Under the pieces are notes generated by a model. That model was given only the letters and a program-made list of their open reading frames with translations. It did not search any database and had not been told where the DNA came from. A stretch of 64,000 nt of DNA from Desulfoferula mesophila (GTDB lineage: Bacteria; Desulfobacterota; Desulfarculia; Desulfarculales; Desulfarculaceae), in NCBI RefSeq assembly GCF_037076455.1, contig NZ_AP028679.1, forward strand, positions 3,239,501-3,303,500, read 5' to 3'. Both the position numbers and the translations under genes were made by a program. Positions within the stretch are counted from its first letter, which is position 1, and each line of letters starts with the position of its first letter. This document shows, piece after piece, positions 51,963-63,576 of this stretch.

Positions 51963-54083
51963 TTAACCACCGAAGGTGATTTGGGCTATATAAGGTTCGA
52001 TCAGGGCCTTGATCGGCTCGCTTATGGCCGTCGGGCATTTCAGGGCGCCGTCAAAAAATCCGCAGCCATACTCATTCAGTAGACACATACCCATCAGGTG
52101 ATCTATGGCGCCGTTGACGCCGTGGCGCGCCTCGGCTCCCAGCCGAACCAACAGCCTGCGGTGCAGCCAGGCGGCATTGGGCACCACACCCGCCATGGCC
52201 AACATCGCGCCCAGATCATCGGTCTCCGGCTCACCGGCCAACCGGGCCATCACCTCCTGGTCCACCTCCAAGGCTTCGCATCCCCCAACGCCATGCGGCG
52301 AAGCCAGTACCCAGTCCCGCGCCTGGGCGGCCTCCAAACCCATCAGGCGCAAGGCATAGTAATAAGCGCAGGTGGTGGCCAGGGCAGGGTCGTCCGGGCC
52401 GGGCCCGTCACTGTCCTCGGCCATAACCTCGCGTATCAAAAGGTAAAAATAGCAGCACAAGAGCATCTGCAATTGCTGATCGGCCAGGAATTGCTCACGG
52501 TATATCAGGCAGGCGGCGCGTATCAGCCCCAGGTGCACCGCGTGGACGCAGTCGGCGATATTTTGGGCCTCGCCGGTCTCCGGATCAATGCCCAGGGTGA
52601 CGGCATTGAGCGATATGGCCACCACCCGGTCCTCCTCCGAAAAGAACACCCGGGCCGATATGTTGTCATCCCGCATGATGGGCAGGTGGATGTATATCAA
52701 CTGGGCTTCCAGAGCCCGCGCGATCACGGCCTGGGTGGGGCAGGCGGGCATTTTGGCCAGGCAGCGCCGGAATGCTTCGTCAAACTTGCGGTAGCAGTGG
52801 CTGAACTCCTCGGTGCGGTAAAACACATACAGTTTGTTGCCGAACTGGCGCAGAACCCTCTTGGCTAAATCGTCCCAGTGCCTGATCCGGTGCAACTGCC
52901 GCTCTTGCCGGGCCATGGAAACCAGGGTGCGGCACCAGTTGGAGACCATGAGGGCGTGTTGACTGGAGCGGCTGGCCAAGCCCATGAGATCAGCTTCGCT
53001 AAACAGCAAGGTCATGAGCTTCTGGTGCTCCGGGGTCATTTCGGGGTCGTTTAGCTTGGCCGAGAGCTTGGCGAAACCATCGGGCAGTTGCGCGATGTCC
53101 CGCAGGGGCGCCAGCATGCCGCGTTCCGCGGCCCACTCCAGCACCTCGGACGGGATTTGATGGAAGTTGTCCAGCAGCAGTCCGGGGTCCTGCAGGCAGG
53201 AATGATACAGCCGGAAATTGGATATGGTGGGCAGGCCCAGGGCCATCAGTTGGGCGAAGGTCATGGCCTGGCTCAGGCTCTTCACCGGCAAGGCCGGTAT
53301 GGGCCAGTTGTCGAAATCTATGGTCTCCTCGTCGGGGTACAAAAACAGCTTGGCACCGAACTCCGTGGCCGCCATGACCTTGGCGATCAAGCCGCCCACC
53401 GCATGCACCCGGAAATGCTCGTCAACCCCCCCGGTGGCCATCAGAGAGCGGGGCCACTCGATCCCCTGGGCCAACAGGCCCACCGCCATGGCAAAGGGCA
53501 GCCCCAGGGAATCGCCCCGGACCGAGGGCCCGGAGGGATTGAGCAGTGGCCAGACATAGAAGGCCCGCGATCCACCGTCCACCAGGCCGGAGTCGGTGGC
53601 CGCCTCGAAAGCCATTTCAATGGTCTGCAGGCAGTCTGGTCCCAGGCAGTCCCGAGCCCACCCCGGCATCTCCAGGCCGGAACCGCCGGCCATGGGGGCG
53701 AGCAGCAACTGGAACAAACAACCCTGGTTGTTGACACTCACCAGCGGTATGGGCACCGAGGTCCAGGGCATGGCCAGGGCCTCCAGCCAGGTCAGTCCCG
53801 GCAGCACCGCCTCGACGCTGTGGTTGTCCGCCAGCCACTGGATCAGCCAGGCGGGGGCGGGGTCTTCTTCTTTGGCGATCAAGACCCCGGCGATGGTGTG
53901 CAGGAGGAATATCTCCTCGAGGCCCTGGCGGCTGGCCATATCCATGGCTTGGTTGAGCTGGGCCAGATCCTGGGGCCAAGGCCCGCCCACCTTTTCCAGG
54001 CGGTGGCAGGCCAGCTCCAGGGAATGGGAGTCAGCCATATAGACCAGCAGATCATCCCACTCTTCGGTCAGGGTCACGGCCAT
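51963..54083 (-). CDS. Lon-type Ser-Lys protease-domain protein without AAA+ ATPase
   Basis: A 706-residue cytosolic protein with no membrane segments. Residues about 130-290 resemble the Lon (S16) proteolytic domain. Ser192 sits in VRGDSLGLPFAMAVGLLAQG (Lon consensus G-P-S-A-G) and Lys235 in HAVGGLIAKVMAAT (Lon G-G-L-x-x-K). Their spacing of 43 residues equals that of the E. coli Lon dyad, and MATGGVDEHFRVHAVGG mirrors the Lon MTGEI-x-LRG-x-V-x-P-IGG stretch. No Walker motifs are present. The remaining 400 C-terminal residues, mostly helical, were not recognised and may be a sensor. The start overlaps the upstream stop as TAATG, so it is coupled to the zinc-motif anti-sigma-like gene. Confidence 0.7.
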   Translation of the reverse strand: MAVTLTEEWDDLLVYMADSHSLELACHRLEKVGGPWPQDLAQLNQAMDMASRQGLEEIFLLHTIAGVLIAKEEDPAPAWLIQWLADNHSVEAVLPGLTWLEALAMPWTSVPIPLVSVNNQGCLFQLLLAPMAGGSGLEMPGWARDCLGPDCLQTIEMAFEAATDSGLVDGGSRAFYVWPLLNPSGPSVRGDSLGLPFAMAVGLLAQGIEWPRSLMATGGVDEHFRVHAVGGLIAKVMAATEFGAKLFLYPDEETIDFDNWPIPALPVKSLSQAMTFAQLMALGLPTISNFRLYHSCLQDPGLLLDNFHQIPSEVLEWAAERGMLAPLRDIAQLPDGFAKLSAKLNDPEMTPEHQKLMTLLFSEADLMGLASRSSQHALMVSNWCRTLVSMARQERQLHRIRHWDDLAKRVLRQFGNKLYVFYRTEEFSHCYRKFDEAFRRCLAKMPACPTQAVIARALEAQLIYIHLPIMRDDNISARVFFSEEDRVVAISLNAVTLGIDPETGEAQNIADCVHAVHLGLIRAACLIYREQFLADQQLQMLLCCYFYLLIREVMAEDSDGPGPDDPALATTCAYYYALRLMGLEAAQARDWVLASPHGVGGCEALEVDQEVMARLAGEPETDDLGAMLAMAGVVPNAAWLHRRLLVRLGAEARHGVNGAIDHLMGMCLLNEYGCGFFDGALKCPTAISEPIKALIEPYIAQITFGG

Positions 54084-55312
54084 TACCTCTGCTTGCTGAA
54101 CAACCGGGCGTAAAGGCGGCGGTGAAGCTCGGGCTGCCCCTCGCTCTCGCCCTCCGGGAACACCGCCCAGAAGCGAATGGATTCGGTATCAGTCGGCCCC
54201 AGATGGCCGTTCAGACTTTTGAGCAGTTTGCCTTGGGCGTCCAACCAGCGGAACTCTGCCTGCCAGTGCTCCCCTTCCGGCAGAGGACCCAGGATCCTGC
54301 CTCCCACCGCCACCTTGGGCTGACTCAGGAAGTCGGTGACGTGCGCTTGGAGGAAATGGCAGGCGACCGGCCGTCCTCGGCGGATCTGGAAGGCCAGCAC
54401 CGGCACGCGCCAGCCCTTGTCCGCGGTGGCCGCGGCTTTTAATAGATGTTGTTCGCCGGGGCTGGCGTGGAAGTACAGGTCCGCCGGAGTCAGGCCGGCG
54501 GCCAGCGGCAGTTCCACCTTCAAGCCCAAATCCCGCAGATCCTCGATCAGCCGGGTGGGAGCCTCCGTCTCATCCACGATATCCGAGGCCGTCCGCGGCG
54601 CGGCCTCCGGCTTCTCCGCTCCCTGCGGGGCGTCCATCACCTGGCGGTCCTCCACGGCCGCTTCGTACTCGGCCATCAGCTGTTGGGCCGCGGAAAAGGA
54701 AAAATAGCACCCCAGCTCGATTTCCATCTGCTGGAATACGTGGCCCAGGGACCAGGGGGCCAGGTGAGGGAAAGGCTTTTGGCTGGCTTCACGGACCAAA
54801 GCGGCGGCCGCTGGGTTGGATGGGGCGCATAGCTCGAACAGGTTGCGGCGGTGCAAGGTGTAGACGTTCCACGGCTGGGCGAAACGGCTCTCGTCCAAAA
54901 GCACATCCTGGCTGGAGGCAAAGGTAGGGTCATAGTGGGTCTGCGCCACCAAGACGGCGTTGGCGAGGTTGGGGCCGGTGTCCAGCACCAGCACTAGGGG
55001 TGGCCGATAATAGCGGTGCTTGGGCCCCCAGCCCGCCAAGGCCGGATCCAGGCGCCACACCTGCCCCGGTTCCGGGGACTCATCGGAAGTTTCATGGTGG
55101 CCGTGCCAGGGCTCCGGAGCCAATTGCTGCCAGGGGGGCTCAATGATTTCGGCTGTCCGGCGTCTTTGGCAAAGCAGGCATGCCTCCAGATGGGCCGCCG
55201 CCTCGGGGGTGAGCTCCTGGCCAATGACTTCCTCCAGAGGAGGACAAAACCGCATTTGCCAGGCCAGCTCCCAGGCCTGAAAAATTTGCCATTTCTCAAA
55301 ATAGTCATTCAT
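54083..55312 (-). CDS. Putative cytosolic anti-sigma factor with HxxxCxxC zinc motif
   Basis: A 409-residue protein. The N-terminal 60 residues carry Cys23 and AAHLEACLLCQRR (His41, Cys45, Cys48), the H-x3-C-x2-C signature of zinc-binding anti-sigma domains. Residues about 75-175 (GQVWRLDPALAGW, then YRPPLVLVLDTGPNLANAV) faintly resemble a MazF/PemK-like SH3 barrel. The C-terminal half is unrecognised. No transmembrane helix is seen, unlike most ECF anti-sigmas. ATG 55312 was chosen; ATG 55351, with a GGAG upstream and only 2 bases from the sigma gene, is an alternative. It lies between a sigma-like and a Lon-like gene. Confidence 0.6.
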   Translation of the reverse strand: MNDYFEKWQIFQAWELAWQMRFCPPLEEVIGQELTPEAAAHLEACLLCQRRRTAEIIEPPWQQLAPEPWHGHHETSDESPEPGQVWRLDPALAGWGPKHRYYRPPLVLVLDTGPNLANAVLVAQTHYDPTFASSQDVLLDESRFAQPWNVYTLHRRNLFELCAPSNPAAAALVREASQKPFPHLAPWSLGHVFQQMEIELGCYFSFSAAQQLMAEYEAAVEDRQVMDAPQGAEKPEAAPRTASDIVDETEAPTRLIEDLRDLGLKVELPLAAGLTPADLYFHASPGEQHLLKAAATADKGWRVPVLAFQIRRGRPVACHFLQAHVTDFLSQPKVAVGGRILGPLPEGEHWQAEFRWLDAQGKLLKSLNGHLGPTDTESIRFWAVFPEGESEGQPELHRRLYARLFSKQR

Positions 55313-55353
55313 GGGTGGGGGCCTTTCTTGTGTGTGTGAGCATCCACCCATCT

Positions 55354-56415
55354 CTAACGGTCTCCAAAGTCCTTTTTGCAAGTTTCAGCGATGTAAAGCA
55401 AAAATTTGGTCCAAAATGACCTTTCGCGCGCGGCCGGGGCGACTCCAGGCCAACTTTCAAAAACCAGGGCCAGATCGTCGCAGGCGCGGTCCAGTTGATA
55501 TTTGACGTGGCTCGGCCCGGACAGGCCGGTCATCTGGGCGATCTGCTCCAACGTCAAGTTGCCTGGGTCCAGGGTGAGCTGGAAGACCTTGCGGCGCTTG
55601 GAGCTCCACAGGGAGGCCACCTGCCAGGCCAGGATTTCCAGACCGTCCTGATCGGAGACGTTGTGCGCCGCCAACCCCTCATGGGCCAGGGCCTGGTCGG
55701 ACAACTGTCTCTGTTGAGGGTCGCGCAGGTGCTCATAGTGAGCCACCAGGAAATCAACCAGGCTCCTTATCGGCAGGAAGGCCGGCCGGCCCAGGCGCTC
55801 CACCGCCTGGCGCCAGAAGAACTCGGCCAGGAGGTTCAGGTCCTTGGCCCGCAGGCGCTCCAGATCCTTCGGCCCCACCAGCCCGGCCGGAGAGGGCCAT
55901 TGCGCGTAGGATTCGCCGACCCTCGTCTCCAATGCGGCCTGCGGTTTGGCGCCGAGCTCAAGGCTGAAGAAACTTCCGCCTCCGATGGAGCGCGAATAGA
56001 ACTCCGGACCTTCGGCAATGGCCTGGCGCAGGCGTCGGTAGAGATAACGGTACTGGCTGATGTCCTTATGACGGGCCTGGTCGCGCAGATTTAGGAGAAA
56101 GCCGTTGCGCAGGTAGGCCGCGGTCGTCCTGCCCGGCCGGCCTTGGCTGTCCGAGGTTTCCAACGGAGGAGCCATCCCCTTGGCCAGGAAGTTTTGCAGA
56201 TACAGCCAGAATTCATGGGCCACGTCTTCGATGTTTTGGTCCATCTCCTGGGGGGAGGTCCCGCGGGGGGCAGGAAAGGGCCATAACTTGGCGGGAAGAT
56301 CCAGCGAGGCGGCCCGCGACATAATGATGCGGGCCTCCTGCCGCAGCCAAGGCAGGCACTCGTCGGAGAACAGGTACTGCGCCAAGGATTGGACGTTATC
56401 GGATGCCGGCTTCAT
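55354..56415 (-). CDS. Sigma-70-family-like transcription factor
   Basis: A 353-residue protein. Residues about 60-125 look like sigma region 2 (NIEDVAHEFWLYLQNFL, then AAYLRNGFLLNLRDQARHKD). Residues about 275-320 resemble region 4 with a helix-turn-helix (RKVFQLTLDPGNLTLEQIAQ and SGPSHVKYQLDRACDDL). The long linker makes it larger than a standard ECF factor (about 190 residues). The start ATG 56415 directly abuts the upstream stop. The following gene has a ZAS-type motif, supporting a sigma/anti-sigma pair. Homology is by eye only. Confidence 0.6.
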   Translation of the reverse strand: MKPASDNVQSLAQYLFSDECLPWLRQEARIIMSRAASLDLPAKLWPFPAPRGTSPQEMDQNIEDVAHEFWLYLQNFLAKGMAPPLETSDSQGRPGRTTAAYLRNGFLLNLRDQARHKDISQYRYLYRRLRQAIAEGPEFYSRSIGGGSFFSLELGAKPQAALETRVGESYAQWPSPAGLVGPKDLERLRAKDLNLLAEFFWRQAVERLGRPAFLPIRSLVDFLVAHYEHLRDPQQRQLSDQALAHEGLAAHNVSDQDGLEILAWQVASLWSSKRRKVFQLTLDPGNLTLEQIAQMTGLSGPSHVKYQLDRACDDLALVFESWPGVAPAARERSFWTKFLLYIAETCKKDFGDR

Positions 56416-57373: not shown

Positions 57374-57853
57374 ATGAAATACATTATTGGCCATATTAAC
57401 GCAAGCCATTTAGGGGTGCGTGCCGTCTTTTTGGCCACATTTATATCTTTTGTACTAATTGCATCGGTTTTAAATGCTCACGCTAATGCTGACAACAAAG
57501 CATCGGACAATGGAAAATATGATGAACTGATTAGTTCCGGCCTGGTGATGGATAAAACCATCACGCCCATAGGCCGCCACTTCTATAAAGAGTTCATGGC
57601 TTATTGGACCGCCCCCAGAGGATTATCCGACTACACCATTACCATTATTGAACGCTTTAACCCTCAGTGGGGCAGTATCGCTTGGATCTCCGTGGACGAC
57701 GACATCATCTACCAACAGCTCATTAGTTCGCGCAGGCTCATCATGGAGGATTTGGCCAAGGACGCGGTGCGCCAAGTGCTGCAATTCATGGTCAAAAGGG
57801 AAATTATCAAGCGATACAAGGGCAGTATGGATCTCGAAGGCGACGGGTATTAA
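57374..57853 (+). CDS. csgE: Curli production assembly/transport protein CsgE
   Basis: A 159-residue periplasmic adaptor that caps the CsgG pore and delivers curlin subunits. A hydrophobic signal (about 17-36, ending NAHANA) precedes the diagnostic GLVMDKTITPIGRHFYKEF and YTITIIERFNPQWGSIAWI stretches and DAVRQVLQFM near the end. Codon use is more AT-rich at the 5' end than its neighbours. It is the first gene of csgE-csgF-csgG. Confidence 0.9.
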   Translation: MKYIIGHINASHLGVRAVFLATFISFVLIASVLNAHANADNKASDNGKYDELISSGLVMDKTITPIGRHFYKEFMAYWTAPRGLSDYTITIIERFNPQWGSIAWISVDDDIIYQQLISSRRLIMEDLAKDAVRQVLQFMVKREIIKRYKGSMDLEGDGY

Positions 57854-57869
57854 GAAAGGAAGGCTTCAG

Positions 57870-58292
57870 ATGACCACGATCAAACCGAGCTTGTTCACGT
57901 TAATTTTTGCCGCGGCCCTGCTGGCTATGGCGACCACCGCCTCGGCAACGGAACTAGTTTGGGCACCGATCAATCCCAACTTTGTTGGTGGAAACCCTCT
58001 AATGGCCAATGCACTTTTGGCCAACGCTCAATCGCAGGATAACAACAAAGACCCAGACTTGGATTCAGCTCAGAGCCGCCTTGACGATTTCACCGACAAC
58101 TTGAACCGGAGCATTTTATCGCTCCTGTCAGCCAGAATTGTTGAGCGTGCTTTCGGGACCGACAGTCTGCCAAACGGCACTTTTACTATTGGTGATTACA
58201 CCGTTGTTATCTCCGATACTCTCGGATCATTGAACGTCAATGTATCGGATACCGGTGGCAACAATACTCATATATCCATCCCGACCTTTTAA
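57870..58292 (+). CDS. csgF: Curli production assembly/transport protein CsgF
   Basis: A 140-residue protein with a signal peptide (to about residue 26, TASATE) followed by the conserved CsgF segment LVWAPINPNFVGGNPLMANA, which inserts into the CsgG channel and forms its second constriction. The C-terminus, YTVVISDTLGSLNVNVSD, is typical. Start ATG 57870 follows AAGGAAGG; the longer frame inside csgE is a shadow. CsgF couples secretion to nucleation at the cell surface. Confidence 0.92.
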   Translation: MTTIKPSLFTLIFAAALLAMATTASATELVWAPINPNFVGGNPLMANALLANAQSQDNNKDPDLDSAQSRLDDFTDNLNRSILSLLSARIVERAFGTDSLPNGTFTIGDYTVVISDTLGSLNVNVSDTGGNNTHISIPTF

Positions 58293-58331
58293 GGAAATAT
58301 TCCTGCTGAGGGGAAACGGAGAGGACCTGAA

Positions 58332-60128
58332 ATGCTGATCTATCTTAAACGGTTCGGGGTTATGATCCTGCTCACCATGGTATCCGCATGCAGCATTCCC
58401 ATGCATGAATTCGATATCATGCCGCCTCATGTGAGTAGGATAAGTCACACCTATAAAGACCTGGTCTCTCTTCCTTCCCCCAAAGGAAAAATACGAGTCA
58501 GCGTGTACTCCTTCCGGGACATGACCGGGCAGTACAAGCCCCAGCCCAACGTGAGCTCCTTCTCCACGGCGGTGACCCAGGGTGCGGTGAACATCCTGCT
58601 CGAGGCGCTCAAGCGCTCCAAGTGGTTCATCCCGGTGGAGCGTGACGGCCTGCAGAGCCTGCTCACCGAGCGCAAGATCATCGCCGCCGCAAACCGCAAA
58701 AATGGCGCTGGCGAAGCGCAGTTGCCGGCCTTGGAGTTTGCCAACGTGCTGCTGCAGGGCGGCATCACCGCCTATGAGACCAACACCCTCACCGGTGGCT
58801 TCGGGGCGCGCTATTTCGGCATCGGGGGTTCCACCCAGTACCGCATGGACCAAGTCACGGTGCACCTGAGGGCGGTTGACGTTAATTCCGGGCGCATCCT
58901 GAAATCCATCTCCACCACCAAGACCATCTTCTCCTATGAGGTCGACGCCGGAGTCTTCCAGTTCATCTCCTACAAGAAGCTTCTGGAGATCGAGGCGGGC
59001 TTCAGCCAGAACGAGCCCGTGCAGATGTGCGTGGCCGCTGCCATCGAGAAGGCGGTAATCGCCATGGTCATCGAGGGCGTGCAGGACGGCCTCTGGGCCC
59101 TGAAGGACCCCGAGCAGATCAACAGCCCCGTCTTCAAGGACTATGAGGAAGAGTCCCAGCGCCTGGCCACCGAAGCCGAGTTGAAGAGGGTCGAGGCCAA
59201 GGCGGCCGCGGTGCGCAAGGCCAAGTACGACTCCGCGGCTCTGGAGAAGTTCCAGGCCGAGCAGGCCGAGAAGCAGCGGATAGAAGCCGAGGCCAAGGCC
59301 GAGCAGGAAGCCAAGCAGCGGATGGAAGCCGAAGCCAAGGCCGAGGAGCAAGCGAAGCAGCGCATGGAAGCCGAAGCCAAGGCCGAGCAGGAAGCGAAGC
59401 AGCGGATGGAAGCCGAAGCCAAGGCCGAGCAGGAAGCGAAGCTGCGCATGGAAGCCGCGGCCAAGGCCGAGCAGGAAGAGAAGCAGCGGATAGAAGCCGA
59501 GGCCAAGGCCGAGCAGGAAGCGAAGCAGCGCATGGAAGCCGAAGCCAAGGCCGAGCAGGAAGAGAAGCTGCGCATGGAAGCCGCGGCCAAGGCCGAGCAG
59601 GAAGAGAAGCTGCGCATGGAAGCCGCGGCCAAGGCCGAGCAGGAAGAGAAGCTGCGCATGGAAGCCGCGGCCAAGGCCGAGCAGGCCGAGAAGCAGCGGA
59701 TAGAAGCCGAGGCCAAGGCCGAGCAGGCCTCCGCCGAGGCGCAGGACCAGCCTCAGATCAAGAAGTGGACTACCCCCACGCAAGACGGTGATGCGCTCCC
59801 CACCCCCCAGGCCACTCCGGCCAGGGAGGCGGATGTGGAAGGCCGTCGGGGAGTCGGCAAGGCCGGCCAAACCTTGTCCCGAATCGACCAGCCCCAGGCC
59901 GCGCCCCCGCGGGCGCTACCTGGGAGCGAGGCGGCTGCGTCCCTGCCCGCGCAGGAAGCTCCGTCCGCTGCTGGGGCCGAGACCGATCAGGGCGGCGCTC
60001 CCGCCGCGCCCGCGAGCGTAGAGCGCCAGGAGAGCCACAACGCTGCGTCCATCCGGCTGGCCAGCTGGATGCCCTTAAATATCACCCCTCAAGCGGCCCA
60101 GGTGCGGCTGAGCGGCTTGGGAATTTAA
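58332..60128 (+). CDS. csgG: Curli secretion channel CsgG with long repetitive C-terminal extension
   Basis: Outer-membrane lipoprotein pore for curlin secretion. The signal ends in a lipobox (MVSAC, Cys20). The CsgG domain (about 30-285) shows VSVYSFRDMTGQYKPQPNVS, SFSTAVTQGAVNILLEALKR and FANVLLQGGITAYETNTLTG, and the barrel hairpins. E. coli CsgG ends near 277 residues. Here 598 are encoded: a charged helix of eleven 14-residue repeats (310-463) and then a Pro/Ala-rich tail ending in SLPAQEAPSAAG, and IRLASWMPLNITPQ. In known CsgG the C-terminus faces the periplasm, so the extension would project there, perhaps toward the wall or inner membrane. Confidence 0.92.
   Translation: MLIYLKRFGVMILLTMVSACSIPMHEFDIMPPHVSRISHTYKDLVSLPSPKGKIRVSVYSFRDMTGQYKPQPNVSSFSTAVTQGAVNILLEALKRSKWFIPVERDGLQSLLTERKIIAAANRKNGAGEAQLPALEFANVLLQGGITAYETNTLTGGFGARYFGIGGSTQYRMDQVTVHLRAVDVNSGRILKSISTTKTIFSYEVDAGVFQFISYKKLLEIEAGFSQNEPVQMCVAAAIEKAVIAMVIEGVQDGLWALKDPEQINSPVFKDYEEESQRLATEAELKRVEAKAAAVRKAKYDSAALEKFQAEQAEKQRIEAEAKAEQEAKQRMEAEAKAEEQAKQRMEAEAKAEQEAKQRMEAEAKAEQEAKLRMEAAAKAEQEEKQRIEAEAKAEQEAKQRMEAEAKAEQEEKLRMEAAAKAEQEEKLRMEAAAKAEQEEKLRMEAAAKAEQAEKQRIEAEAKAEQASAEAQDQPQIKKWTTPTQDGDALPTPQATPAREADVEGRRGVGKAGQTLSRIDQPQAAPPRALPGSEAAASLPAQEAPSAAGAETDQGGAPAAPASVERQESHNAASIRLASWMPLNITPQAAQVRLSGLGI
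59259..59720 (+). repeat. Eleven 42-bp in-frame tandem repeats in csgG
   Basis: Eleven units of exactly 42 bases encode variants of EQEAKQRMEAEAKA, with R-I or R-M, E-A or A-A and Q or L variations. A partial twelfth unit (EQAS) follows. Fourteen residues equal two heptads, giving a long coiled coil or single alpha-helix. Unit sequences group in patches, as expected from slippage or unequal crossing-over. Confidence 0.93.
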
Positions 60129-60160
60129 TCCGTCACGGCTTGGGATAAGGAGCCTGTGCT

Positions 60161-60994
60161 ATGAACCAATCCACCTCAATCAAAAGGATCTTGGCGGCGA
60201 TGCTGCTGACCCTGTCTCTGGCCGTCTTGGGCGCCGGGCTCACCCCGCCCGCCCTGGCGGCCGGGGGCCAGATCGATGCCCGCTCCAACCAGTCCTACAT
60301 CTATCAAAGCGGGCCTAGCGCCCTGGCTTATGTCGACCAGGTCGGCCAGGGCAACTTCTCGCGGGTGGAGCAGGAGCGTGGCAGCAGCCTGTCTCGGGTC
60401 CGGCAGCTGGGCGAAGAAAACTACTCGGAGATCAAGCAGTACGGCTGGACCACCTTGCAGAACTCGGCCGAGGTGCTGCAACTGGGCCGCCACAACAAAG
60501 CCGTCGTCGAGCAGAACGGCTCGGGCAACCGGGCCGCGATCTCCCAGGCCAGTGCCGGCATCTGGGGCAGCTCCTATGGTGAGTATCTCAACGTGGCCGA
60601 AATCACCCAGTGGGGCACGGGCAACTGGGCCAATATCGACCAGGTGGGCAGCCACAAGGCGACCATCGTCCAGGGTAGCCCCTGTCAGTTGGCCATCGGC
60701 AACCGCGCCTCCATTTACCAGCTCGTCGGCACGGGCAGTGAGGCCTCCATCAGCCAGATGGGATCCCTGAACAGCGCGGCCATCAGCCAAATGGTCGGGG
60801 GCGGCGAGGCCTCCATCACCCAGACCGGCTATTACAACAACGCCACGATCGTCCAGTGGGCGGCCAACGCCCCGGTCAACATCACTCAAAGCGGCAATCG
60901 CAACGTGGCCAATGTGGTCCAGAACGTGGGACTGCCCGTGGAAGTGACCCAGACCGGCCACATGGTCACCAACATCGTCGTGGGAACAAGGTAG
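60161..60994 (+). CDS. Curlin-repeat protein, 277 residues
   Basis: A secreted curli subunit homologue about twice the size of E. coli CsgA. The signal peptide ends around ALAAGG. Roughly ten curlin-like repeats follow, such as YVDQVGQGNFSRVEQ, AVVEQNGSGNRAAISQA and ASITQTGYYNNATIVQ. One cysteine (GSPCQLAIG) interrupts the series. AAGGAG lies nine bases before ATG 60161. It follows csgG by 32 bases. It could serve as major subunit or nucleator; the last repeats lack the regular N, which is reminiscent of CsgB. Confidence 0.88.
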   Translation: MNQSTSIKRILAAMLLTLSLAVLGAGLTPPALAAGGQIDARSNQSYIYQSGPSALAYVDQVGQGNFSRVEQERGSSLSRVRQLGEENYSEIKQYGWTTLQNSAEVLQLGRHNKAVVEQNGSGNRAAISQASAGIWGSSYGEYLNVAEITQWGTGNWANIDQVGSHKATIVQGSPCQLAIGNRASIYQLVGTGSEASISQMGSLNSAAISQMVGGGEASITQTGYYNNATIVQWAANAPVNITQSGNRNVANVVQNVGLPVEVTQTGHMVTNIVVGTR

Positions 60995-61010
60995 GCAACT
61001 CAAATACACC

Positions 61011-61032
61011 AAAGGAGGTGATGCCGATGTAG
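61011..61032 (+). promoter_or_regulatory. Extended perfect Shine-Dalgarno with a minimal ORF
   Basis: AAAGGAGGTGAT (61011-61022) is fully complementary to the canonical 3' end of 16S rRNA. It runs straight into ATG CCG ATG TAG: the second ATG (61027) lies at ideal spacing and is followed at once by a stop. It sits just after the upstream curlin gene in the spacer before the next one. Confidence 0.5.
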
Positions 61033-61162
61033 GAACAGGAGAAGCCCCGAGGAATCAACCTGAGCTTAGCCGAGCGGACCCGGCTAACCCCCAACCAAAC
61101 AAGAACCGTAAGAACCGAGAACCGACAAAGAGACCAAAAACCGAAAGACAAGGAGCAATACA

Positions 61163-61987
61163 GTGAAGAAAATACTATTGGGCTTGCTGGGAGTGTGCCT
61201 GCTTTCCAGTGTTGCCATGGCTGGCGGCATCGACATCGTTAACCAGCCCTACGACTTCCGCAACCAGAGCTATATCACCCAGTCCGGCGACTTCTCCTGG
61301 GCCATGGTGAACCAGTATGGCGACCAGAGCGTTTCTACCATCTCGCAGACCGGCACCTTTGACAAGGCCTACGTGTCCCAGAGCTCCAACTGCTGCTTCA
61401 AGGTTGTCAAGAGCTGGGGCGGCCATCACAACTGGTTCAATAACTACAAGCTGGTGGCCCTGTTCACCGGTGACTTCTGGCAGAACGCTTCTTACATCAG
61501 CCAAAGTGGCAGGGGCTTCCACGACGCTTACGTGAACCAGAACGGCGACGGCAACTGGAGCGTGGTGGTGCAGAAGGGCAAGAAGGACGGCGCCCACGTC
61601 ACGCAGAACGGCAACTTCAACCTGAGCCAGATCAAGCAGGATGGCTGGGGCGTTAACAACGCCTTGGTGGACCAGTCCGGCGACGGCAACGTCAGCTTTA
61701 TCGACCAGACCGGTGGCGGCGTCAACCTGGCCATGGTTGATCAGCACGGCTACGGGAACTTCAGCGATATCAACCAGGGTGGGAACAAGTTCTCCCTGTA
61801 CGGCGGCTTCCATTGCCCCATCAATGGCGGCAGCGGCATCAACACCGCCGTGGTGAACCAGCTCGGCTACATGAACTACAGCGAGATCACCCAGACCGGC
61901 CGCGGCACGCACACCGCCTTCGTGAACCAGGCCAACTTCTGCTACACCGCCAGCCTTCCCGGCTGCCCGGGCGGAAGATGCAACTAG
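61163..61987 (+). CDS. Cysteine-containing curlin-repeat protein, 274 residues
   Basis: A secreted curlin homologue. The signal peptide ends near AMAGG. Repeats include YITQSGDFSWAMVNQYG, AYVNQNGDGNWSVVVQKG and ALVDQSGDGNVSFIDQTG. Two insertions break the repeat rhythm, around residues 75-105 and 210-225. It has six cysteines (NCCFK, FHCPI, NFCYT, PGCPGGRC), unusual because enterobacterial CsgA and CsgB lack cysteine in the mature part. Start GTG 61163 has AAGGAG seven bases upstream. A strong hairpin follows the gene. It is a probable major or specialised fibre subunit. Confidence 0.87.
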   Translation: MKKILLGLLGVCLLSSVAMAGGIDIVNQPYDFRNQSYITQSGDFSWAMVNQYGDQSVSTISQTGTFDKAYVSQSSNCCFKVVKSWGGHHNWFNNYKLVALFTGDFWQNASYISQSGRGFHDAYVNQNGDGNWSVVVQKGKKDGAHVTQNGNFNLSQIKQDGWGVNNALVDQSGDGNVSFIDQTGGGVNLAMVDQHGYGNFSDINQGGNKFSLYGGFHCPINGGSGINTAVVNQLGYMNYSEITQTGRGTHTAFVNQANFCYTASLPGCPGGRCN

Positions 61988-62003
61988 TTAGTTAACCTTC
62001 TAC

Positions 62004-62045
62004 CAGGGGTGGGCCCGTATGAGCCTACCGGCGGGCCCACCCCTG
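62004..62045 (+). terminator. Strong 14-bp hairpin after the cysteine-rich curlin gene
   Basis: CAGGGGTGGGCCCG pairs perfectly with CGGGCCCACCCCTG around a 14-base loop, 17 bases after the stop codon. No T-run follows, so it may act as an mRNA 3' stabiliser or partial terminator that keeps curlin expression above the downstream genes. Confidence 0.55.
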
Positions 62046-62108
62046 CCCACCCATTGAAAATCAGACGGCAGGCGCTGAAACGACCGGCAAGAGAACGAGA
62101 GGGATCAA

Positions 62109-62789
62109 GTGAAGATGCAGTCCACGGCCATAGCGATTGTCTTGGGGTTGCTGCTGATTTGCCTGCCCCACTTGGCCCGAAGCGAACAAGGACCGGACAA
62201 GCCCCCTCCCCAGGTTGATCTGAACGGTGACGGCAAGGTCAGCCTTGAGGAGCACTTGGCCTGGGAAAAGCGCATGTTCGCCAGCTACGACACCAACGGC
62301 GACGGCTACCTTGAAGTTGACGAGGTGGCCAAACAGTCCGAAACCATTACCTTGCCCGACGTTGCATCCAACGAAAAAAAACCGGACGGCGATTTGGCCC
62401 TGAAGGAACAGGAACCCACTATATATAAGTTCAGTCCCGATTTGGACCAGGACGGAGACAACCGGCTAAGCCTGAAGGAACATTTGGATTACCAGACCAA
62501 AAAATTCAACAGCAATGACTTGAACGGCGACGGCCAATTGACCATGCAGGAAATCAGGGACAAGGCGCGAATGGCCCAGGCAGAAGCCATGGCCAAGCTG
62601 AAGATCATGCAGGAGCAGTGGCAGCTGGATAGCAAGAACACTCCTGGTCCTTTGCCCCAGGTCGAAGCGGACAACAAAACCGCCAGCATTGCCCAAGTGC
62701 CAGCGGCACCCCCCAGGAAATTCACATTTCAAGAACAGCCATCATCGGGGAAAGGTTCTTTAACTCTAGAAAAATCTACTCTCAAGTGA
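62109..62789 (+). CDS. Exported protein with four EF-hand loops
   Basis: A 226-residue protein with an N-terminal signal (about 1-25, LARSEQG). Four canonical calcium loops are visible: DLNGDGKVSLEE, DTNGDGYLEVDE, DQDGDNRLSLKE and DLNGDGQLTMQE, as two pairs separated by an acidic linker. A helical segment rich in Met, Ala and Lys and a Pro-rich tail follow. The start is GTG 62109. It is probably a periplasmic or surface calcium-binding protein; its place among curli genes suggests a calcium-linked role in fibre assembly, which is inference. Confidence 0.85.
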   Translation: MKMQSTAIAIVLGLLLICLPHLARSEQGPDKPPPQVDLNGDGKVSLEEHLAWEKRMFASYDTNGDGYLEVDEVAKQSETITLPDVASNEKKPDGDLALKEQEPTIYKFSPDLDQDGDNRLSLKEHLDYQTKKFNSNDLNGDGQLTMQEIRDKARMAQAEAMAKLKIMQEQWQLDSKNTPGPLPQVEADNKTASIAQVPAAPPRKFTFQEQPSSGKGSLTLEKSTLK

Positions 62790-62886
62790 ATAAGCGTAGT
62801 ATTATGAATTCACATGTTAAAACTCTAGGATTTTCCCCTGTGACCTGCCAGGCGTGTGCTGCCCACGCGCGCTATGGAGTACAGCG

Positions 62887-63576
62887 ATGAACTTGGTAAT
62901 GAAAAACCGCGAGGACACCAGCCAAAGGAACCTCAAGGTGCACGTGGCGGGTGGGCAGCGCCTAACCAACAAGTTGGTTTGCGGCCTGCTTTCAGCCAAT
63001 GAAGGCATGATCCCCTCCGAAGGCCCCCTGGATGACCTTCCTTTGCTCATCGACGGGGGCGAGGACCAGAAGCCCGACGTGGTCCTTCTGGACTACTTCA
63101 CGCCTGAGGTACAGGAGCGCCTCCACGAGGATGGCCTAAACCTGCTGGTCAGCCTGAAGGGCACCCCGACCATCGTGTTCAACTTCGGCCAGGAGACCCA
63201 TTCCAAAAAGTGGATCGTCAACGGCGTGCGCGGCGTGGTCTATGCCGAGGAGAAGCCCGAGATCATCGTCAAGGCGGTGATGGTAGTCTCCATGGGGCAC
63301 ATGTGGTTCCCCCGGGAAGCCATGTCCAAATGCCTGAGCAACAGCTGGGACGACAAGCCCAAGCAGAAGCGGGAAGAAGGCGACCTCACCAACCGGGAAA
63401 AAGAGGTGCTTTCCTTGGCGGCGGAAGGCTTCAGCAACGCGGCCATCGCCGACAAGCTGTTCATAAGCGCCTACACCGTGAAAGTTCATATGCAAAACAT
63501 CTATAGAAAGATCGGTGTTCCCAATCGTGTGACGGCATCCATTTGGGCCCGAAAGCACTTGGACCTCGAAGCATAG
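62887..63576 (+). CDS. CsgD-like LuxR-family transcriptional regulator
   Basis: A 229-residue regulator. The C-terminal LuxR/GerE helix-turn-helix (about 165-225) reads LTNREKEVLSLAAEGFSNAA, then IADKLFISAYTVKVHMQNIY. The N-terminal domain is receiver-like (PDVVLLDYFTPEVQERL with a possible phospho-Asp) but atypical, as in CsgD. Start ATG 62887 was chosen over the upstream in-frame ATG 62854 for lack of conservation there. Its position in the curli locus suggests it controls curli expression. Confidence 0.85.
   Translation: MNLVMKNREDTSQRNLKVHVAGGQRLTNKLVCGLLSANEGMIPSEGPLDDLPLLIDGGEDQKPDVVLLDYFTPEVQERLHEDGLNLLVSLKGTPTIVFNFGQETHSKKWIVNGVRGVVYAEEKPEIIVKAVMVVSMGHMWFPREAMSKCLSNSWDDKPKQKREEGDLTNREKEVLSLAAEGFSNAAIADKLFISAYTVKVHMQNIYRKIGVPNRVTASIWARKHLDLEA

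Follow-up and report, generated by a model that had tools for sequence, protein, structure and literature searches.

Background

The question raised by this locus is why the curli secretion channel CsgG of Desulfoferula mesophila should continue beyond its core into a long C-terminal extension, and what such an extension might do. In CsgG structures the C-terminus lies on the periplasmic side. The periplasmic end of the channel is reported to be capped by CsgE (PMC7304575, PMC6957492, PMC4389571), and a survey published in 2012 describes the size of CsgG as unaffected by the size of CsgA (PMC3521004). In FapF, an amyloid-exporting outer membrane channel of Pseudomonas, a periplasmic coiled coil has been reported to be essential for secretion (PMC6173795), and has been proposed to span the periplasm, to recruit substrate or to anchor beneath the peptidoglycan (PMC6173795, PMC5557850). 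In this study, we analysed a 64,000-nucleotide stretch of the D. mesophila chromosome, referred to here as the window, which carries a csgG gene of unusual length within a curli locus. Among the open-licence papers searched, no title or opening part of an abstract reported a CsgG extension of this kind.

The curli locus and its csgG gene

The window csgG belongs to a complete csgE-csgF-csgG-curlin-curlin operon. The genes of the region are as follows:

51963-56415, minus strand: three divergent genes beside the curli locus, encoding proteins of 353, 432 and 706 aa
57374..57853, plus strand: csgE (Pfam CsgE, E 1.9e-23)
57870..58292, plus strand: csgF (Pfam CsgF, E 4.5e-32)
58332..60128, plus strand: csgG with C-terminal extension, a single open frame of 598 aa
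60161..60994, plus strand: curlin 1 (Curlin_rpt, E 1.3e-25)
61163..61987, plus strand: curlin 2 (Curlin_rpt, E 1.5e-17)
62109..62789, plus strand: secreted-looking EF-hand protein adjoining the curlins, in the same place in genome G010
62854..63576, plus strand: LuxR-type regulator, its position matching that in G010

The order csgE, csgF, csgG, two curlin genes, EF-hand gene and LuxR gene is identical in the window and in G010, a genome of another genus in the same family, and the three divergent genes upstream are kept both in G010 and in a further genome, G018. Pfam gave only weak matches for the divergent genes, namely sigma-70 region 4 for the 353-aa protein (E 0.13) and Lon_C for the 706-aa protein (E 0.0044). 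The 706-aa protein, encoded by the farthest of the three, was present in three of 63 genomes of the class (the window genome, G010 and G018, all curli-positive) and absent from the curli-positive genome G008, whose CsgG has no extension; resting on four curli genomes, this co-occurrence with the type of curli locus is suggestive only. The three-gene block is a possible curli-linked regulatory cassette.

The 4.48-Mb single-contig genome carries one intact csgG, as determined by a whole-protein search (E up to 0.001). The first-pass annotation had named the product CsgG, and the results confirmed this. Pfam PF03783 (CsgG) matches residues 46-257 (E 3.8e-74; 249 bits against a curated cut-off of 20.8), sequence comparison with the PDB aligns residues 7-271 with the solved E. 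coli CsgG, and a Foldseek search with the predicted model matched solved CsgG structures (4uv3_C: E 1.0e-22, TM by target 0.77). Foldseek matches beyond CsgG, to FlgT, PelC and HpaA, were taken as likeness of the core fold, unrelated to the extension. The core is 51-77% identical to nine other CsgG cores. A lipoprotein signal is present by sequence, with Cys20 in the context VSAC, nearly invariant in alignment A1 and invariant in A2. The protein has in common with E. coli CsgG (3x2r, 4uv3, 6si7) its fold and family over residues 7-271, the lipobox Cys and the csgE/csgF/curlin operon. E. coli CsgG has a chain of 277 aa, and the window protein runs about 320 residues past the matched end, as a predicted helix and a disordered tail. 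The window protein (276.5 bits) and its G010 counterpart (270.5 bits) both fall below the cut-off of 505 of the NCBIfam equivalog NF011731, a limit that probably fits close E. coli-like CsgG; the window protein, homologous to CsgG and encoded within a curli operon, thus lies outside that named equivalog.

Anatomy of the extension

Beyond residue 272 the protein continues for 326 residues, where 290 had been estimated at first, and consists of a linker, a repeat array and a Pro/Ala-rich tail. Its features are listed below:

58332..59147, plus strand: CsgG core, residues 1-272, with lipobox Cys20 (Pfam CsgG at 46-257)
59127..59732, plus strand: predicted uninterrupted helix, residues 266-467 (AlphaFold2, C-terminal fragment)
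59148..59255, plus strand: linker, residues 273-308 (36 residues), homologous to that of the relative G010
59256..59717, plus strand: eleven 14-residue repeats, residues 309-462, as in-frame 42-bp units
59733..60125, plus strand: Pro/Ala-rich tail, predicted disordered (pLDDT about 29-48)
60057..60083, plus strand: LASWMPLNI, a C-terminal motif whose counterpart LKKWEPVNI lies close to the end of the G010 CsgG

Eleven exact repeats of 42 bp had been described by the first-pass annotation; their number and length were upheld, but the units are not exact, since they comprise eight distinct DNA forms and six distinct protein forms, with 4 of 55 pairs identical and a mean pairwise identity of 90% (91% according to TRF). 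The period of 14 exceeds chance expectation by a wide margin: at a lag of 14 residues identity was 0.65, and none of 500 shuffles gave more than 0.29. Between units, pN was 0.086 and pS 0.161, and this roughly two-fold synonymous excess suggests mild constraint. The Pro/Ala tail that had been placed after the repeats is indeed there, at 20% Ala and 11% Pro. A Pfam scan of all 598 residues (E up to 0.001) returned CsgG as the sole family. Two candidate relatives of the array were rejected: the window genome held no other whole-protein match (E up to 0.001) that could serve as a paralogous source of the repeats, and a PDB match of the repeats to 9hcj_V0 (E 1.4e-8) was judged low-complexity helix likeness and was not used.

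Relatives within the class

At a threshold of E up to 1e-15, a curli CsgG was found in 4 of the 63 class genomes, all in the family of the window genome and each from a different genus. The curli locus (57374-63576) is patchy: none of seven other genomes from the genus of the window genome has it, and three further genera in the family do. A short CsgG-like protein in G015 (37% over 95 residues) is not a curli CsgG and was left out of the counts, and matches covering mainly the repeats in other class genomes (e.g. G033, G043), with weak E-values, were taken as generic charged helices.

The first-pass annotation had called for a search for extended homologues, and had named their complete absence as a ground for refutation; this ground falls away, as one was found in G010. 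The G010 CsgG has 572 residues, a core 77% identical to that of the window, a helix-like run of 14-residue repeats with the same period, and a Pro-containing tail. The two linkers align with a local score of 102 (shuffle mean 32.5), which none of 2000 shuffles equalled, and both C-termini carry LxxWxPxNI, a motif known from these two sequences, with an alignment score that 3 of 2000 shuffles reached. Between the repeat units of the two proteins there is no significant likeness (775 of 5000 shuffled units score as well). As linker and end are homologous and the repeat units show no significant likeness, the extension as a whole was probably inherited while the array turned over. Judged from these comparisons, the extension did not arise as a sequencing artefact, since G010 agrees with it in design, in a homologous linker and in the C-terminal motif. 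The reading frame through it is likewise supported, with third-position GC coding-like throughout (0.79-0.92) and the start and end of the extension homologous in frame to those of G010.

The extension is absent, as assembled, from the other two curli-positive genomes, G008 and G018. The G008 CsgG has a tail of 20 residues. That of G018 stops 28 residues past the core; as just 6 bases separate its stop codon from the end of a low-coverage contig (1.43x), it is uncertain whether a long extension is truly missing there. The G008 locus (L045:10664-12019, minus strand) also shows CsgF and CsgG in one uninterrupted frame, a possible fusion or a stop lost in the draft assembly.

Survey of CsgG tails

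A set of 27 loci was surveyed, consisting of L017 (the G018 contig sequence) and 26 loci from beta- or gammaproteobacteria; apart from L043, which is cut inside the core, and wherever ends are present, tails measure 8-78 residues and none is repetitive. Larger samples overlap slightly with each other, and for those of their frames that were not read one by one, the limit on a tail is set by frame length alone. In the phylum sample, CsgG was found in 9 of 395 genomes and the helix in two only, the window genome and G010; when the tails of the other seven were read the repeat was not seen, and the longest, in G177, has about 128 residues. That tail (L060) bears the motif KPFWxVFWP twice. The gammaproteobacterial sample gave CsgG in 6 of 369 genomes, with open frames of at most 336 aa. 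CsgG is frequent in the family of a Shewanella locus (84/116), where frames reach at most 308 aa except for one of 453 aa in G924, whose surplus length lies upstream of the core. The order of a Pollutimonas locus yielded 7 of 300, with frames of at most 381 aa and tails of about 50 and about 22 residues in the two longest, and the class of G264 yielded 2 of 17, both counted in other samples.

Among plasmid records, 54 had a CsgG match and the tails of nine were read; Bacteroidota CsgG is covered here through plasmids. Four alphaproteobacterial plasmid proteins have 11-114 extra residues. Five from Spirosoma, Hymenobacter and Salinibacter likewise combine a core with extra C-terminal residues (178-195), but these extensions differ from that of the window in being non-repetitive and low in charge (16-21%), and in having no helix stalk; the one scanned against Pfam matched CsgG alone at the cut-off. 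By eye, the extra C-termini of these five (L063, L069, L070, L071, L072) look strand-rich and beta-barrel-like. No such helix was seen in the other CsgGs surveyed, and the helix-bearing channel of the window and G010 looks like a genuine form of a familiar pore with a narrow distribution.

The predicted helix

The first-pass annotation had put the helix at 154 residues, the length of the array. Prediction agrees that the array is helical but makes the helix longer. An AlphaFold2 model of residues 256-598, built from the single sequence, has one continuous helix at 266-467 with pLDDT mostly 76-97 and disorder downstream; its 202 residues, at 0.15 nm each, would measure about 30 nm, in keeping with the expectation that the helix could reach across the periplasm. 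A full-length model, with an input alignment containing 17 other CsgGs, has helices at 266-358 and 368-470 separated by a low-confidence break at 357-368, which we read as uncertain because the fragment model does not have it.

Oppositely charged residues at i,i+4 are dense, with 61 pairs in the window protein against a shuffle mean of 21.9 (2.8x; 0/1000 shuffles) and 8 same-charge pairs; in G010 there are 39 against 17.3 (0/1000 shuffles). This density, together with the continuous predicted helix at 266-467, is what is expected of a single alpha-helix (SAH). The hydrophobic periodicity of 3.5 residues that marks heptad coiled coils was weak in both proteins: in a test of hydropathy periodicity, which is less than a full coiled-coil test, the heptad (14/4) harmonic was 31.9 in the window (strongest 530) and 7.1 in G010 (strongest 269). 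Bulky hydrophobic residues are scarce in the helix. Because charge pairs are dense and the heptad signal is weak, the predictions favour a charge-stabilised single helix over a nine-stranded coiled-coil bundle.

Possible roles of the extension

By homology to E. coli CsgG the extension would lie on the periplasmic side, where it had been placed by the first-pass annotation. The window CsgG is presumably a nonamer with nine stalks, which we take to be unbundled. The best explanation, although we give it rather less than an even chance, is that the extension acts as a periplasmic stalk or tether for capture of substrate or CsgE, for contact with the wall, or for both. In this reading the C-terminus of the curli channel would be drawn out into a rigid alpha-helix of about 200 residues (30 nm) that is stabilised by its charges, and a flexible tail rich in Pro and Ala would continue from it, with a short conserved motif at its end. 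Since the C-terminus would be periplasmic and CsgE caps the periplasmic end, nine stalks anchored at the outer membrane would hang from the vestibule rim around the pore entrance and the CsgE-binding site. They could serve as tethers reaching through the wall layer, where LxxWxPxNI in the tail would bind a partner close to the wall or to the inner membrane; such tethering would raise the concentration of curlins or CsgE around the pore, and it may also hold the pore to the wall.

The tether reading is supported by the CsgG fold and family, the predicted single helix, homology of the linker and C-terminal motif, synteny, the period of 14, the charge pairs, the precedent of FapF and the CsgE cap at the periplasmic end. 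Counted against it are the lack of significant likeness of the repeat units between two genera, the small basis of the motif (two sequences), the low-confidence break that the full-length model shows at 357-368 and the length of the helix. The usual depth of the periplasm is less than 30 nm. For the extension itself, neither a partner nor a domain for wall binding nor a site for CsgE was identified. Since E. coli-type CsgG works without the helix, and two of the four curli-positive class genomes lack it as assembled, secretion as such does not require it. Simple charge attraction, by which the helix might act as an electrostatic curlin chaperone, was unsupported, residues 272-475 having a net charge of -14 and the curlins also being negative (-2 and -3 after removal of 22 residues).

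FapF is likewise an outer membrane amyloid exporter; its periplasmic extension is helical, and it too has a disordered linker. It is, however, an unrelated 12-stranded trimeric barrel with a true trimeric coiled coil of 38 residues at its N-terminus, whereas the window protein has the CsgG fold and a C-terminal extension of about 200 helical residues, expected in nine copies and without clear heptads. A resemblance to TolA/TonB, suggested at first, holds for composition and for the long helical or Pro-rich segment spanning the periplasm (PMC12204202). It does not extend to architecture: TolA and TonB are described as having an N-terminal inner membrane TM anchor and a globular C-terminal domain (PMC12204202), whereas the window CsgG is outer membrane-anchored, begins with a lipoprotein signal and shows no TolA/TonB family domain in Pfam (E up to 0.001).

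The main rival to the tether, which is judged the most likely reading, is neutral repeat expansion, in which slippage would have extended a short charged linker into a long helix that the pore tolerates but that has no dedicated function. We consider this unlikely but by no means negligible. The array looks young and homogeneous, its units are weakly constrained and without significant likeness between the two genera, and the extension is missing as assembled from half of the curli-positive class genomes, all of which would suit such an origin. On the other hand, both genera retain the linker and the C-terminal end while the stretch between them turns over, and charge pattern, period and open frame have all survived in both the window and G010.

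The first-pass annotation had proposed a bundle of nine helices, and a nonameric coiled coil prolonging the channel or gating its periplasmic entrance has some attraction, given nine parallel copies tethered at one end, a 14-residue unit equal to two heptads, and the trimeric coiled coil of FapF. We nevertheless regard it as improbable, as the heptad harmonic is weak in both proteins, bulky hydrophobics are few and the i,i+4 salt-bridge pattern is strong, as is typical of a single helix; a bundle would also be expected to compete with the CsgE cap below the pore. Slightly less probable still is a pure cell-wall anchor fixing the pore to peptidoglycan with no handling of substrate, for although a long arm in the periplasm with a flexible tail at its end would suit this and the role has been suggested for FapF (PMC5557850), no wall-binding Pfam family was found in the 598 residues (E up to 0.001).

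A bolder form of the tether, which we hold to be a speculative and rather improbable one, is a self-spanning curli channel in which nine single-helix stalks of 30 nm let their flexible Trp-motif tails dock near the inner membrane, so that curlins leaving Sec would be guided to the pore. If true, evolution would have solved twice, and independently, the problem that FapF appears to solve by a coiled coil.

Conclusions

CsgG length does vary, as seen in the window and G010 proteins and in the plasmid CsgGs of Bacteroidota and Rhodothermota, against the statement on CsgG size in the 2012 survey (PMC3521004). The window CsgG also offers a parallel to FapF. A naturally tolerated periplasmic extension of 326 residues could be of practical use, given the employment of CsgG in nanopores. 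CsgG is a commercial nanopore scaffold. How unfolded curlins are maintained in the periplasm and directed across it is an unsettled question, and a CsgG with its own long periplasmic arm would be a natural, removable module for testing whether capture near the pore limits secretion.
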